A stretch of 64,000 nucleotides of DNA from Luteibacter flocculans (GTDB lineage: Bacteria; Pseudomonadota; Gammaproteobacteria; Xanthomonadales; Rhodanobacteraceae): positions 3,962,501-4,026,500 of the forward strand of contig NZ_CP063231.1 in the NCBI RefSeq assembly GCF_023612255.1, written 5' to 3'. The translations under genes and the position numbers were made by a program. A model generated the notes under the pieces. That model searched no databases, was not told the DNA's origin, and saw only the letters and a list, made by a program, of their open reading frames with translations. Position 1 is the stretch's first letter. Each line of letters opens with the position of its first letter. This document shows, one piece after another, positions 31,475 through 36,150 of the stretch.

Positions 31475-34378
31475 TCAGGGCTTCGAAGGTTCCGCTGCCG
31501 GTGCCTTCTTGCGTGCACCACCGGACGCGGCCGCTTGCTTGACCGGATGCCCGTCGGCGTCGATCACCTGTACCTCACCGAGATGCAAGGCGCGCACCGG
31601 CGCCTCGATCTTGCGCAGGTCGCCCACGATCACCCAGGTGATCGCATCCGGACGTACGACGGCACTGAGCGCCGCTTCCGCAGCCTTGCGATCCACAGCT
31701 TCGATACGCGGCTTGAGCGTCTGCACGTAGTCGTCGGGACGGTCGTAGACGACGATGCCGCTCATGGCGCCCAGTACGGATCCGGTGGTCTCGAAGCTGC
31801 CCGGCAGGGCACGGATACGCTGCGCGCGGATCTTTGCGATCTCATCGTCCGTCAGCGGCTTGGCACCGACGACCGCCTTGGCTTCCTTGAGAATTTCCGC
31901 CGCCGATTCCGCCGTCTTGTCGGTCTGCACCGGCGCGTAGATCAACATTGGGCGCTGCCCCTGGGCTTCGGCGAGCAAGCTGCTGGCACCGTAGGCCCAG
32001 CGTTTTTCCTCGCGCAGGTTCATGTTGAGACGCGACGTGAACGTGCCGCCGAACGCGCCGTTGGCGATGCCAAGATCGATGGCGTTCTTCGCTTTCGTGG
32101 ACGGCGCGAGCAAGCCCGCGAGGATCAGCGATTGCGGTGCGTCCGTGCGATTGATGAGGAACACGCGCGGCTTCGTCTGCACGGCGACCTCGCCGATGCG
32201 CTTCTTCGGGATAGGCGTGGTCGGCGGGGTCCAGTCGCCAAACACTGCATCGAGCTGCGGAAGGATCGTCGCCAGCGTGGTATCGCCCGCCACCAGGATG
32301 CGTGCGTTGTCGGGGCGCAGGAAGTCGCGCTGGAAGCCCTTGAAGTCGTCCACGGTCAGCGACGAGATCGCGTCGGCGGTGCCACTGCCTGTGAACGGGA
32401 TGCCGTAGGCGTGGTCCGGACCGTAGAGCAACGGCGGCAAGGTGCGCATGGCAAGACCGGTGGGCTCGGTCTTCTCCTGCGCGATGCCCGCAAGCCACTG
32501 CCCACGGATGCGCTCGACATCCTCGGTCTTGAAGGCCGGATGACGCACGATGTCCGCGAACAGCGCCAGCGACGGAGCCAGTTCGGCGTTGAGCGCGTTG
32601 AGGCCAACCGCGCAGGTGTCGAGCGAGCAATCCGCGTTCACGGCGGCGCCGAGGCGCTCCTTGCGCCGCGCGACCTCGACCGAATCGAGCGACGTGGTGC
32701 TTTCCTCCAGCAAGGCGGAGGTGAAGCTGGCCGTGCCGAGCTTGCGCCCTTGGTCGGCCGCGTAGCCCGCATCGAACAGCAACTGAATCTGGGTCACGGG
32801 TACCGTGTGGCGTTCGGCCAGCACGACCTCGATGCCGTTCTTCAGGCGCCCGCGCTGAAGAGCCGGAAAGATCAGATCGGGGAAGGCATCGACCGATGGC
32901 ACGCCCTTGGCGCGATCCACCGCCGGGGCCGCGACTGTGTAGGTCTTGGCCGGGGGTTCGGCCACTGCGGGACGCTGGCTCGACGGCCCGAGCCCCACCA
33001 CCGCCTTGTCTTCTGCCGCCGGATCGAAGCCCGGCTTTGCCGGCAGCACGGTCAAGGTGTAGTTGCCCTTGCCCAGCCACGTCTTCGAGGCTGCCAGCAC
33101 CGACGCGGCCGTCGCCGCATCCGAACGGGCGAGGTCTTTCTTGTAGGCCTCCGGATCGTTCCGGTAGACCTGACCCTCGGCGAGGATCGCGGCCTTGCCG
33201 CCCGAGCCGCCGACCTTCTCGAGACCGCGGATGAACCCAGCGCGGTTGAGCACTTTCGCACGGGCAAGCTCGTCGTCGGTCGGACCGTTGGCGAGGAAGG
33301 TCTTCCACACGTCCGCGATCGCCGCCTCGACCTTGGCAGGATCGACACCATTCGTCACGGCGACGGTCAACTGCACCTGGCCGGCCAGGGCGAACGGCGA
33401 GATGCCGAGACTCACGTCGTCGGCCAGTTTGTCCTGGTAGACCAGCCGCTGATAGAGCCGCGAGGTCTTGCCGCCGCCGAGCACCGTGGTGGCGAGATCC
33501 AGCAGGATCGCGTCGTCGGTGCCGAGCTGCGGCACGACCCACGTGCGGATGATGCGAACCTGCGCGACCTGATCGTGCTGTACGCCGCGAGTGGCCTTTT
33601 CCACGGGCGTGATCCATGGCTGCTGACGCGGCACCGGCGGCCCGGCGGGGATATCGCCGAAGTACTTCTCCGCCTTCGCCTTCGCCTGTGCGACCGTGAT
33701 GTCGCCGGCCAGCACGAGCGTGGTGTTGGCGGCGCCGTAATAGTCGTGGAACCACTTCTTGACGTCGGCGAGCGAGGCCGCGTCCAGGTCGGCCATGGAG
33801 CCAATCGTGTCGTGGTGATACGGATGATTGGCGGGATAGGTGTTGACCAGCACGTTCTCATCGACGCGCCCGTAAGGGCGGTTCTCGTCCTGGCGCTTCT
33901 CGTTCTGCACCACGCCGCGCTGCGTATCCAGTTCCTTCTGCCCGATGGCGCCCAGCAGATGACCCATGCGGTCGGACTCCATCCACAGCGCCATGTCGAG
34001 CGCGGTGGTCGGCACGGTCTCGAAATAGTTCGTGCGGTCGAACCAGGTCGTGCCGTTCATGTCGGTGGCACCGGCCATCTCGAACGGCTGGAAGAAGGTG
34101 CCCTTGTGGTTCTCCGAACCGGAGAACATGAGGTGCTCGAAGAGATGGGCGAAGCCCGTCTTGCCTGCAGGCTCGTCTGCCGAGCCGACGTGGTACCAGA
34201 TGCTGACCGCGACGACAGGCGCCTTGTGATCCTCGTGCACGACGACGGTCAGTCCATTGGGCAACTGGAAGCGTTGGTAGGGAATATCGGGAATGGCGTC
34301 TGACGGCACAGGGGCGGCCGACGCGGCACCGATAAAAAACGACAGCCCGGCAACCAGCAGGGCGCGGAATGGCTTCAT
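31475..34378 (-). CDS. M16 family zinc metalloprotease (second of the pair)
   Basis: 967 residues with a signal peptide (ALLVAGLSFFIGAASA). The zinc motif HLFEH is at 78-82 and the third-ligand region GVVQNEKRQDENRPYG follows. The same two-half M16 layout as the paralogue, with an Ala/Lys-rich C-terminal tail (GGARKKAPAAEPSKP). It is transcribed away from the sigma-54-controlled mini-gene region. Probably degrades peptides in the periplasm; specific substrates are unknown. Confidence 0.92.
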   Translation of the reverse strand: MKPFRALLVAGLSFFIGAASAAPVPSDAIPDIPYQRFQLPNGLTVVVHEDHKAPVVAVSIWYHVGSADEPAGKTGFAHLFEHLMFSGSENHKGTFFQPFEMAGATDMNGTTWFDRTNYFETVPTTALDMALWMESDRMGHLLGAIGQKELDTQRGVVQNEKRQDENRPYGRVDENVLVNTYPANHPYHHDTIGSMADLDAASLADVKKWFHDYYGAANTTLVLAGDITVAQAKAKAEKYFGDIPAGPPVPRQQPWITPVEKATRGVQHDQVAQVRIIRTWVVPQLGTDDAILLDLATTVLGGGKTSRLYQRLVYQDKLADDVSLGISPFALAGQVQLTVAVTNGVDPAKVEAAIADVWKTFLANGPTDDELARAKVLNRAGFIRGLEKVGGSGGKAAILAEGQVYRNDPEAYKKDLARSDAATAASVLAASKTWLGKGNYTLTVLPAKPGFDPAAEDKAVVGLGPSSQRPAVAEPPAKTYTVAAPAVDRAKGVPSVDAFPDLIFPALQRGRLKNGIEVVLAERHTVPVTQIQLLFDAGYAADQGRKLGTASFTSALLEESTTSLDSVEVARRKERLGAAVNADCSLDTCAVGLNALNAELAPSLALFADIVRHPAFKTEDVERIRGQWLAGIAQEKTEPTGLAMRTLPPLLYGPDHAYGIPFTGSGTADAISSLTVDDFKGFQRDFLRPDNARILVAGDTTLATILPQLDAVFGDWTPPTTPIPKKRIGEVAVQTKPRVFLINRTDAPQSLILAGLLAPSTKAKNAIDLGIANGAFGGTFTSRLNMNLREEKRWAYGASSLLAEAQGQRPMLIYAPVQTDKTAESAAEILKEAKAVVGAKPLTDDEIAKIRAQRIRALPGSFETTGSVLGAMSGIVVYDRPDDYVQTLKPRIEAVDRKAAEAALSAVVRPDAITWVIVGDLRKIEAPVRALHLGEVQVIDADGHPVKQAAASGGARKKAPAAEPSKP

Positions 34379-34467
34379 GTACGACTCCTCAGTGGGCCTT
34401 CGTGGCCTCTGGTCACGCAGGCTAGCCCGCGTCGTCTGTCAGGCGCAATCGGGCGCCACTTACAGCC

Positions 34468-34509
34468 CCGGACGGTGTCCGGTGCGGCGCGGGCAGTGTC
34501 CGCGGACAC
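34468..34509. promoter_or_regulatory. Two palindromes, candidate enhancer sites for a sigma-54 activator
   Basis: CCGGAC-GGT-GTCCGG (34468-34482) and GTGTCCG-CGGACAC (34496-34509) are both perfect and share the half-site GTGTCCG. They lie about 65-105 bases upstream of the sigma-54 -24 element, the usual distance for bacterial enhancer-binding protein sites. No such activator gene is in the window. Confidence 0.55.
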
Positions 34510-34573
34510 GGTCGCCCTCTGAGCGGACCTGACAAACCTCATACGAATCAGCTCATTGCTGGCAATCGAAAGC

Positions 34574-34589
34574 TGGCACGGCGTTTGCG
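34574..34589 (+). promoter_or_regulatory. Sigma-54 (-24/-12) promoter
   Basis: CTGGCACG-GCGT-TTGCG matches the consensus YTGGCACGrNNNTTGCW at all conserved positions except the last base, with exact GG to GC spacing. Predicted transcription start is near 34600, about 46 bases before the first mini-gene. Confidence 0.8.
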
Positions 34590-34645
34590 TTACTAGTCCT
34601 GCCAAGCCGGAGGACATTCCCCCGGTACGCCCTGAGGAGAACGCC

Positions 34646-34729
34646 ATGAAATACGAAATGTTGATGCTGCGCAGCCTGCTCGTGACCTCGATGCTGATCT
34701 GCGGCCTCACCCTCGGCCAGATGTTCTGA
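34646..34729 (+). CDS. 27-residue membrane mini-protein, first of a tandem pair
   Basis: ATG at 34646 with an AGGAG ribosome-binding site 6 bases upstream; stop at 34727-34729. The product MKYEMLMLRSLLVTSMLICG plus LTLGQMF is essentially a single membrane helix. It is strikingly similar to the start of the next small gene (pattern MK-x-E-x-LMLRSLLV-x-S-x-L-x-CGL-x-LG-x-M), so the two are tandem paralogues. Coding conservation with synonymous differences supports real translation. It sits directly behind a sigma-54 promoter. Function is unknown; by analogy with other stress-induced single-helix peptides it may bind a membrane protein (inference). Confidence 0.75.
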   Translation: MKYEMLMLRSLLVTSMLICGLTLGQMF

Positions 34730-34760
34730 CCCCCTCGTTCGAACCTGAGGAACCGACACC

Positions 34761-34955
34761 ATGAAACACGAACTCCTGATGTTGCGCAGCCTGCTGGTGG
34801 CGTCGCTGCTGGTTTGCGGCCTGATCCTGGGCAACATGCTCACCTACGCTGGCGAGCCCATCCAATTGGCGACGCTGAGCGCTTCGACAAGCCTCACGGC
34901 GGCAAGCTGCGCCCTGCCCCCGGATGGCGTCGTCTGCCCGCGCGCGGCCTCATAA
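34761..34955 (+). CDS. 64-residue membrane mini-protein, second of a tandem pair
   Basis: ATG at 34761 with a TGAGGAA ribosome-binding site, 31 bases after the first mini-gene. Residues 1-27 mirror the first product (MKHELLMLRSLLVASLLVCG). An additional tail of 37 residues has a Cys pair (CALPPDGVVC), which could form a disulfide if the tail is periplasmic. The same sigma-54 promoter should drive both. The 3' end carries the CATAAT box that may serve as the trmL -10 element. I do not recognise the family. Confidence 0.75.
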   Translation: MKHELLMLRSLLVASLLVCGLILGNMLTYAGEPIQLATLSASTSLTAASCALPPDGVVCPRAAS

Positions 34956-34956
34956 T
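34951..34956 (+). promoter_or_regulatory. Candidate -10 box of trmL
   Basis: CATAAT lies 6 bases before the trmL ATG and overlaps the stop codon of the mini-protein gene. No Shine-Dalgarno sequence precedes trmL, so a leaderless transcript is possible. Confidence 0.4.
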
Positions 34957-34962
34957 GGGGGC

Positions 34963-35430
34963 ATGCCCCACGTCATCCTTTTCCGACCCGAGATCCCGCC
35001 CAATACGGGCAACGTGATTCGCCTCTGCGCCAATACCGGCGCGGACCTGCACCTCGTACGACCGCTCGGTTTCGAGCTGGACGACGCCCGCCTCCGCCGC
35101 GCGGGGCTGGATTACCACGAGTTCGCCCGCGTCGCGGTCCATGACGACCTCGATGCCTGCCTCGACGCCATCGGCCATCCGCGCGTGTTCGCCTTCTCGA
35201 CCCGCGGCCGCCGGCTGCATACCGACGTGCCCTTCGCCAACGGCGACGCCCTGCTGTTCGGCTGCGAAACGGCAGGCCTGCCCGACGACGTGATCGACGC
35301 GCTGCCCGAGCCACAGCGCATCCGCCTGCCCATGCGACCCGGGAACCGAAGCCTCAACCTGTCGAACGCCGTGGCAGTCGCCGTGTTCGAAGTGTGGAGG
35401 CAGGCCGGGTTCGAGGGTGCGGCACCGTAG
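34963..35430 (+). CDS. trmL: tRNA (cytidine/uridine-34-2'-O)-methyltransferase TrmL
   Basis: 155 residues from the ATG at 34963 (MPHVILFRPEIPPNTGNVIR); E. coli TrmL is 157. SPOUT-fold knot signatures are present: NVIRLCANTGADLHLV near the N-terminus, LLFGCETAGLPDDVI in the middle and MRPGNRSLNLSNAVAVAVFE at the C-terminus. It methylates the wobble ribose of certain tRNAs for leucine using S-adenosylmethionine. In-frame sequence upstream of this ATG is not family-like. Confidence 0.95.
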   Translation: MPHVILFRPEIPPNTGNVIRLCANTGADLHLVRPLGFELDDARLRRAGLDYHEFARVAVHDDLDACLDAIGHPRVFAFSTRGRRLHTDVPFANGDALLFGCETAGLPDDVIDALPEPQRIRLPMRPGNRSLNLSNAVAVAVFEVWRQAGFEGAAP

Positions 35431-35468
35431 ACACGTGGCGCTCACGCGTGGCTGCGGACCCGCCAAGC

Positions 35469-35474
35469 TACAAT
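35469..35474 (+). promoter_or_regulatory. Candidate -10 box of ubiJ
   Basis: TACAAT ends 7 bases before the ubiJ ATG at 35482 and no ribosome-binding site is visible, suggesting a leaderless or near-leaderless transcript. Confidence 0.45.
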
Positions 35475-35481
35475 CGGCCGC

Positions 35482-36150
35482 ATGACTCCCGATCGCCCCG
35501 CGGCCGACGCCGGCCCCAACCGCTTCCTGCCCCGCCCCTTGCGCGCCCTCGCTGGTCGCGCCATGGAGGCGGCGCTCAACCGCGTCGTGGACCTCGATCC
35601 CGATACGCGCGCACGCTTCGACGTACTCGATGGCCGCAGCATCCAGGTGCACCTGGATGGTCCGGACCTGGCCCTGCGTGTTTCCGTGGCAAAGGGGCGG
35701 CTTCGCGTGGGCCCGCCGGAAGACAACGGCACACTCCGCGTCAAGGCGACGCCGGGCAGCCTGCTCGCCATGGCGTTGCGTCGCGATGACGACGGCGTGG
35801 CACCCGGAAAGGTGGACATCGCTGGCGATGCCGAACTCGCTCGCCGGCTGGAACGGCTTGCGCGGCAGTATGCGCCCGACATCGAGGAAGCCTTCGCAAA
35901 GACCTTTGGCGACGTCATCGGCGTGCCGCTGGCCAAAGCATTGCGCGACGCCTTGGGTCACGCCCGCGAAAGCGCCGCGCATCTGACCGAGGACACGGCG
36001 GACTGGCTGCGCGACGAGGCGCGCTTAGCGGTCTCGCCAAGCGAAATGGACGGGTTCCTCGACGGCGTCGATGCCGTGCGCGAACGCGCCGAACGCGCCG
36101 AGGCGCGGTTCGCCCGGCTGGAACGGATGATCAAGGGGACCGGCGCATGA
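35482..36150 (+). CDS. ubiJ: Ubiquinone biosynthesis accessory factor UbiJ
   Basis: 222 residues. An SCP2-like lipid-binding N-terminal domain (residues 20-120, with [20 protein letters not shown]) is followed by a helical C-terminal region ending in a coiled coil ([17 protein letters not shown]). UbiJ scaffolds the Ubi enzyme complex with UbiK and binds lipid intermediates. It overlaps the ubiB start by 4 bases, the classic ubiJ-ubiB arrangement. UbiK is encoded separately at 49459-49713. Confidence 0.92.

Follow-up and report, generated by a model that had tools for sequence, protein, structure and literature searches.

The peptide locus

The window analysed here is the whole 64,000-nt stretch of the Luteibacter flocculans genome in which the locus lies. 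The source genome is 4.30 Mb in one contig, and its nearest relatives in the genome collection were Luteibacter, then Dyella, Rhodanobacter and Frateuria. An intergenic stretch between a divergent peptidase gene and trmL holds TGTCCG elements, a -24/-12 element and two short ORFs. This region had been singled out by a sequence-only reading, whose coordinates were correct when the window was re-read. The features are as follows, in window positions.

31475-34378, - strand: M16-like peptidase of 967 aa, the divergent neighbour, from the ORF list
34468-34482, + strand: inverted repeat CCGGAC-GGT-GTCCGG, candidate upstream enhancer element, with a TGTCCG half-site at 34476-34481
34496-34509, + strand: dyad GTGTCCGCGGACAC, candidate enhancer and proposed site of the exporter-linked response regulator
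34546-34558, + strand: IHF-like site AATCAGCTCATTG (WATCAR-N4-TTR), between enhancer and promoter
34574-34588, + strand: predicted sigma-54 -24/-12 promoter TGGCACGGCGTTTGC
34647-34730, + strand, from ATG: 27-aa one-helix peptide MKYEMLMLRSLLVTSMLICGLTLGQMF, present in 18 of 23 Luteibacter genomes
34761-34955, + strand, from ATG: 64-aa peptide, a helix and a tail with a C-x8-C loop, putatively N-in
34963-35430, + strand: trmL (tRNA 2'-O-methyltransferase), 7 bp downstream of the 64-aa gene

The promoter had been called near-perfect and is even exact (TGGCAC-N5-TTGC). Two perfect palindromes had also been reported upstream. Both are perfect inverted repeats, but they are of different kinds and their registers differ: the dyad GTGTCCGCGGACAC is a gap-free palindrome, unlike the repeat at 34468-34482, whose arms lie 3 bp apart. 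A better reading of the latter is an additional TGTCCG half-site that precedes the half-site of the dyad by 21 bp, and CGGACGGTGTCCG was found at this element in 10 of 13 correctly oriented aligned rows (the other 7 of 20 rows were reversed and left out). Both small genes, of 27 and 64 codons, were present as described, with the ribosome-binding sites AGGAG and GAGGA, respectively, upstream. The gene behind them was named trmL by its best match because both scores, obtained without the first codon, were below cut-off (NF007683, 206.5 bits for a cut-off of 282; TIGR00185, 181.6 for 190.6), and it is possibly co-transcribed with the peptide genes. The divergent neighbour, presumably an M16-like peptidase from its HLFEH motif, showed no sign of regulon membership. 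No sigma-70-like promoter on either strand and no terminator were found in 34300-35500, and there was no Rfam match across the window.

The two ORFs had been proposed to encode paralogous membrane-helix peptides, and they are indeed paralogous, with a hydrophobic helix in both. The best 18-residue hydrophobic window was residues 6-23, with a mean hydropathy of 2.39 in the 64-aa peptide and 1.87 in the 27-aa peptide, and AlphaFold predicted a helix at residues 2-29 with high confidence and a tail with pLDDT below 50 at 35-53 and 60-64. Residues E4, L8, L11, M26, C50 and C59 were invariant across 29 orthologs; the invariance of E4 is taken from this set, since the rule for the 80 peptide loci itself requires E or D at residue 4. 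Some species are counted twice among these 80 loci, which come from two collections, and five loci lie outside the rule: L010, L015, L016 and L259 solely for a V at residue 7, and L031, which has no matching promoter. The C-x8-C motif was found in 74 of 76 long ORFs, the two exceptions (L029 and L287) being out-of-frame ORFs, and the loop was mostly CALPPDGVVC (32 of 62 distinct sequences). In L019 and L021 the loop is nearly wholly changed (CVSGEDAAAC and CDAMIAHATC) and the cysteine spacing is kept, which suggests a disulfide loop. A distant member, L243, has C-x9-C among the sites listed. The 27-aa copy consists of the helix alone, and the cysteine tail is absent from the upstream copy in four other loci (L025, L028, L032 and L297). 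Genomes G223 and G233 each hold two adjacent matches that span nearly the whole peptide profile, and some tandem pairs may carry tails on both members.

Polymorphism within Luteibacter was compared at 18 loci per ORF (18 and 17 distinct sequences). The pN/pS was 0.19 for codons 1-28 of the 64-aa ORF; the other two sense frames gave 1.09 and 8.97 and the antisense frames 2.36, 0.34 and 34.7, of which the 0.34 frame was also low. The 27-aa ORF gave 0.53, with 0.97 and 1.29 in the other sense frames and 0.95, 0.94 and 1.63 in the antisense frames. Both peptide genes are real, and the coding case is weaker for the 27-aa ORF. The 64-aa gene was present in all 23 Luteibacter genomes searched, the source included, and the five without the 27-aa gene have the promoter directly before the long gene.

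A peptide profile had matches in 148 of 233 Rhodanobacteraceae genomes, covering 20 of 26 genera. In an order-wide search, 86 of 348 genomes matched, namely 83 of 100 Rhodanobacteraceae and 3 of 248 outside the family, and the three outside matches were weak (E 0.001-0.005). By this comparison, the family recognised by the profile is shown to be nearly restricted to Rhodanobacteraceae. Searches of Pfam, NCBIfam and PHROGs up to E 1 placed neither window peptide in a family; the one PHROGs match of a class-2 peptide was weak (E 0.11), and a weak PDB match (E 0.84) was taken as noise. When 20 regions with further peptide copies were inspected, 19 combined the peptide with TGTCCG/CGGACA and 11 of the 20 also had a -24/-12 element by the rule used. 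One genome, G003, had ten profile matches. This Luteibacter contains six dispersed near-identical copies (L351-L356), alike over most of 701 bp, with TGTCCG sites, a 43-aa peptide and a -24/-12-like element (TGGCACGGCGGATGC in five).

A predicted composite regulatory site

The -24/-12 element alone is at chance level. With up to one mismatch it was found 3 times in the window, with 3.5 expected, which is not significant; genome-wide there were 16 exact matches and, with one mismatch, 302 versus 408 for the reversed pattern. The composite of dyad and -24/-12 is, in contrast, above chance. This composite site was defined as the dyad, a gap of 50-80 bp and a -24/-12 element, with the reversed pattern as control, and it was found three times in the source genome and never for the control. 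An exact GTGTCCGCGGACA occurs at just two places in the 4.3-Mb genome, each upstream of an exact -24/-12. When the source and 60 relatives were searched, 35 of the 61 genomes had the composite site, all 35 belonging to the 37 Rhodanobacteraceae in the set, and the control gave 0. An even order-wide sample gave the composite site in 90 of 100 Rhodanobacteraceae and 4 of 248 genomes from other families (split by family counted by hand from the result rows), with 0 of 348 for the reversed pattern; related genomes are not independent, so these and all other counts overstate the number of events.

The dyad-to-promoter gaps of 105 sites from the 61 genomes formed three classes spaced by roughly one turn of the DNA, 55-59 bp (24 sites), 64-70 bp (77) and 77-80 bp (4), and gaps of 50-54, 60-63 or 71-76 bp were absent. 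Because sites at one locus have a common origin, the gap classes partly mirror loci, and unrelated loci agree nonetheless. The promoter in the window is exact, recurs at this locus in relatives and stands downstream of helically phased dyads. The conservation check proposed with the original observation turned out in its favour: comparison across relatives shows that the promoter, the dyads and the peptide family are all kept in Rhodanobacteraceae. The predicted arrangement, in which a sigma-54 promoter of the activator-dependent type and its enhancer dyads precede paralogous membrane peptides in tandem, is supported by this conservation and by the shared regulon described below. A search of the source genome for half-sites gave one extra place, 3130048, which has only the half-site and is not counted as regulon; the same search misses the site at 3392185 because its gap limits are different.

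The motif WATCAR-N4-TTR, which we take to be the IHF consensus, occurred exactly in 42 of 66 distinct peptide-locus spacers, with a mean of 0.12 and a maximum of 2 in mononucleotide shuffles; the peptide loci are related by descent, so this count overstates independence. In the rows listed, the IHF-like site lies 28-30 bp before the promoter element. None of the 32 exporter spacers and none of the 42 other spacers contains it. At the peptide locus, bending of the DNA by IHF is probable. In spacers of class-2 peptides (for example L211, L215 and L229; G132 and G133), a recurring inverted repeat seen by eye, GAAATGGC...GCGGTTTTC, replaces the IHF-like site and is perhaps the site of another regulator.

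The predicted regulon and its candidate activator

The peptide genes had been thought to form a dedicated unit, but the source genome has the same site before a MacA/MacB-like exporter operon as well, and relatives have it before TolC, MacB-like permeases and peptidases. The second source-genome site (3026834) precedes an operon of a periplasmic adaptor, an ABC ATPase, two MacB/FtsX permeases, a sigma-54 response regulator and a histidine kinase. Adaptor, ABC ATPase and MacB_PCD/FtsX permease domains are encoded in this operon, and the proteins score lower than the curated MacA, MacB and Dar models require. At the third site (3392185, L222), the ORF that follows has a GTG start and 75 codons and lacks any strongly hydrophobic stretch.

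The sites outside peptide and exporter loci, 42 with this third one included, were then read. Among the sites listed, family scans found TolC proteins (L216, L236 and L245), MacB-like permeases (L217 and L234), S33 or proline-iminopeptidase-like hydrolases (L207 and L246), an S10 carboxypeptidase-like protein (L221), DUF885 (L247), a trypsin-like protease (L225) and an AraC-type regulator (L220) behind the site, and in L213 a peptide gene followed by a beta-lactamase-family protein. Judged solely by likeness of the protein start, further permeases follow the site at L210, L224, L235, L239 and L244, again among the sites listed, and at least 11 one-helix peptides of 28-52 aa follow it in relatives. 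Directly after the exporter operon in L098 (4897-6340, - strand) are what we take to be Band-7/stomatin-like and NfeD-like genes.

A search for a genome-encoded activator with shared dyads had been proposed, and the best candidate was the response regulator whose own operon has the dyads. This regulator is likely the activator of the dyad sites; eight other activators with a strong sigma-54 domain are encoded in the source genome and are also potential dyad binders. Its orthologs at 71% identity or more were found in 36 of 37 sampled Rhodanobacteraceae genomes, the exception (G007) being 80% complete, and orthologs at 65-70% identity in 11 of 24 genomes from other families. Before the orthologous operon in those other families, 6 of 8 loci had at least two exact TGTCCG/CGGACA elements (overlapping in L307), L302 had one and L308 had none, which points to autoregulation. 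A TGGCA(C/T)-like element also stands there, with a -12 part that is not TTGC. Taken together, we consider the regulatory half, a chain of sigma-54, dyad and response regulator, to be very probable. The adaptor gene of L305 (family f4) is separated from the TGTCCG/TGGCAT promoter by a 42-codon ORF with a hydrophobic stretch, seen by eye; at this place, the other family has a small peptide of a different kind.

By eye, the kinase has two helices, a joining loop of about 28 residues that varies between species, and almost no sensor domain. Because only this short, variable loop joins the two helices, the protein's layout suggests that it senses its signal within or at the membrane. The peptides showed no sequence relation to the source kinase. 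Two resemblances were considered and rejected: the peptide loop as a mimic of the kinase loop (LPPDGVVCP and LPVSGVVEP) matched the source kinase only, among the kinases listed, and the peptide as a permease mimic found no support when compared with one permease of a relative.

Proposed mechanism, alternatives and known systems

The explanation that we favour as a whole, leading from the kinase through the peptides to a membrane partner, has a probability of about 0.45. A membrane or peptide insult would activate the membrane-embedded histidine kinase, which would phosphorylate the sigma-54 response regulator. The regulator would bind the TGTCCG(CGGACA) enhancers at helically phased distances, and sigma-54 polymerase would transcribe the two peptide genes, IHF probably bending the DNA, as well as the exporter operon and, in relatives, the genes of TolC, MacB-like permeases and peptidases. 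The peptides would insert as single helices, N-in/C-out, and residues E4, L8, L11 and M26 of the helix would dock on a membrane partner and stabilise or tune it, much as AcrZ does with AcrB; the exporter permeases are the most likely partner. The longer peptide would act in the periplasm through its C-x8-C loop, probably a disulfide, and the short copy would be a helix-only version. Conservation, coding, the shared site and the near-restriction to Rhodanobacteraceae come from direct comparison of genomes, from which we infer the identity of the binding regulator, the topology, the disulfide, the role of IHF, the partner and the effect.

A membrane partner is favoured because the regulon is shared and the helix is conserved. 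We give even odds that the peptides are partners of the exporter or the kinase, and regard the exporter in particular as a tentative choice with roughly one chance in three or somewhat less. The exporter and regulator are also found in genomes that lack a peptide match, both in other families and, within Rhodanobacteraceae, in G028, G030 and G035 (G026 has only a match at E 0.0097), so neither of the two has the peptides as an essential part. The ten profile matches in G003 would be unexpected for a stoichiometric subunit and for a feedback inhibitor. It is conceivable, if rather unlikely, that a sigma-54 regulon for membrane stress commonly has such one-helix peptides among its outputs, and that they serve as interchangeable membrane modulators by which a MacB-type exporter and its extra permeases are fitted to different substrates. 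Such modulators would form a so far undescribed family with and without the C-x8-C periplasmic loop, with about ten copies in one genome, and almost confined to Rhodanobacteraceae.

The peptides could instead be feedback regulators that bind the two helices of the kinase and damp or prime it, as MgrB does with PhoQ, the C-x8-C loop being the redox- or ligand-sensitive part. Probable control by the same two-component system, a kinase with just a short loop between its helices and the conserved peptide helix would fit this model, but the ten matches in one genome, the contrast between a kinase loop that varies among species and a nearly constant peptide loop, and the absence of any Pfam or NCBIfam match at E up to 1 speak against it, and we put it at about one chance in five. 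Slightly less probable is that the helix is a Sec signal and that the C-x8-C tail is released and then exported via the co-regulated MacA/MacB-TolC machinery as a signal or antimicrobial. MacB-type pumps export periplasmic peptides, an exporter lies behind the same site (in relatives TolC and peptidases too), and the loop is disulfide-like. However, a strict AxA was found at residues 24-45 in just 26 of 62 distinct sequences, so that conservation of a signal-peptidase site seems doubtful, helix-only copies would have nothing to release, and the loop is conserved rather than diversified. The size, the hydrophobicity and the multiple dispersed copies in one genome would also suit a membrane-depolarising small toxin or dormancy peptide induced by a stress system; this is improbable, as 34300-35500 has no sigma-70-like promoter on either strand, the window has no Rfam match, and the conserved polar E4 and periplasmic loop fit poorly. 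Chance motifs with spurious ORFs could account for the -24/-12 element alone, but have a negligible probability given the composite-site counts versus the reversed control, the pN/pS values, the gap classes, the order-wide sample and the conservation in relatives.

Under the favoured reading, a family of small proteins that has had no name would gain a probable regulator, a regulon and a candidate partner. In a family common in soil, a tripartite-type exporter, peptidases and very small membrane proteins would also become connected with sigma-54 control. A literature search, judged by titles and the starts of abstracts among the matches listed and with most subscription papers outside its reach, did not find the peptide family or regulon described. 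In the part of a Luteibacter transcriptome study that was available, the sigma-54 passage concerns flagella (PMC9040847).

Several known systems resemble parts of this one. The ABC pump SmaCDEF of Stenotrophomonas maltophilia (Smlt1651-4) is likened as an ABC pump with locus tags that span four genes, and the term sigma-54 is absent from the available portions of the two texts (PMC11356428, PMC8277102). The best NCBIfam match of the response regulator was TIGR02915, of the PrsK/PrsR system of PEP-CTERM bacteria, but the regulator scored 343.9 bits with a cut-off of 502.6 and the kinase 63.1 with a cut-off of 300. An adaptor, a LolD/MacB-like ATPase and MacB_PCD/FtsX permeases in the regulon recall MacA-MacB-TolC and the darobactin exporter DarBCD; unlike these, the present system has a separate ATPase and two permeases and its own sigma-54 two-component system, and its proteins are below the model cut-offs. 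MgrB has periplasmic cysteines. As far as the part of the source used here goes, it is a small membrane protein that represses PhoQ via transmembrane and periplasmic contacts (PMC10576120). The peptides differ from it in having no sequence family match, sigma-54 control, a tandem helix-only copy and several copies in some genomes, and share with it the small one-helix form, the link to a two-component system and cysteines on the presumed periplasmic side. AcrZ is a small helix bound to the AcrB pump and co-regulated with this efflux pump. The peptides have no sequence family match to it either, their pump is of the MacB/FtsX rather than the RND type and they carry a C-x8-C tail, but they too are single-helix and co-regulated with a predicted efflux pump. 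If they tune the exporter or the kinase, they would be an independent case of small membrane proteins shaping responses to antimicrobial peptides.
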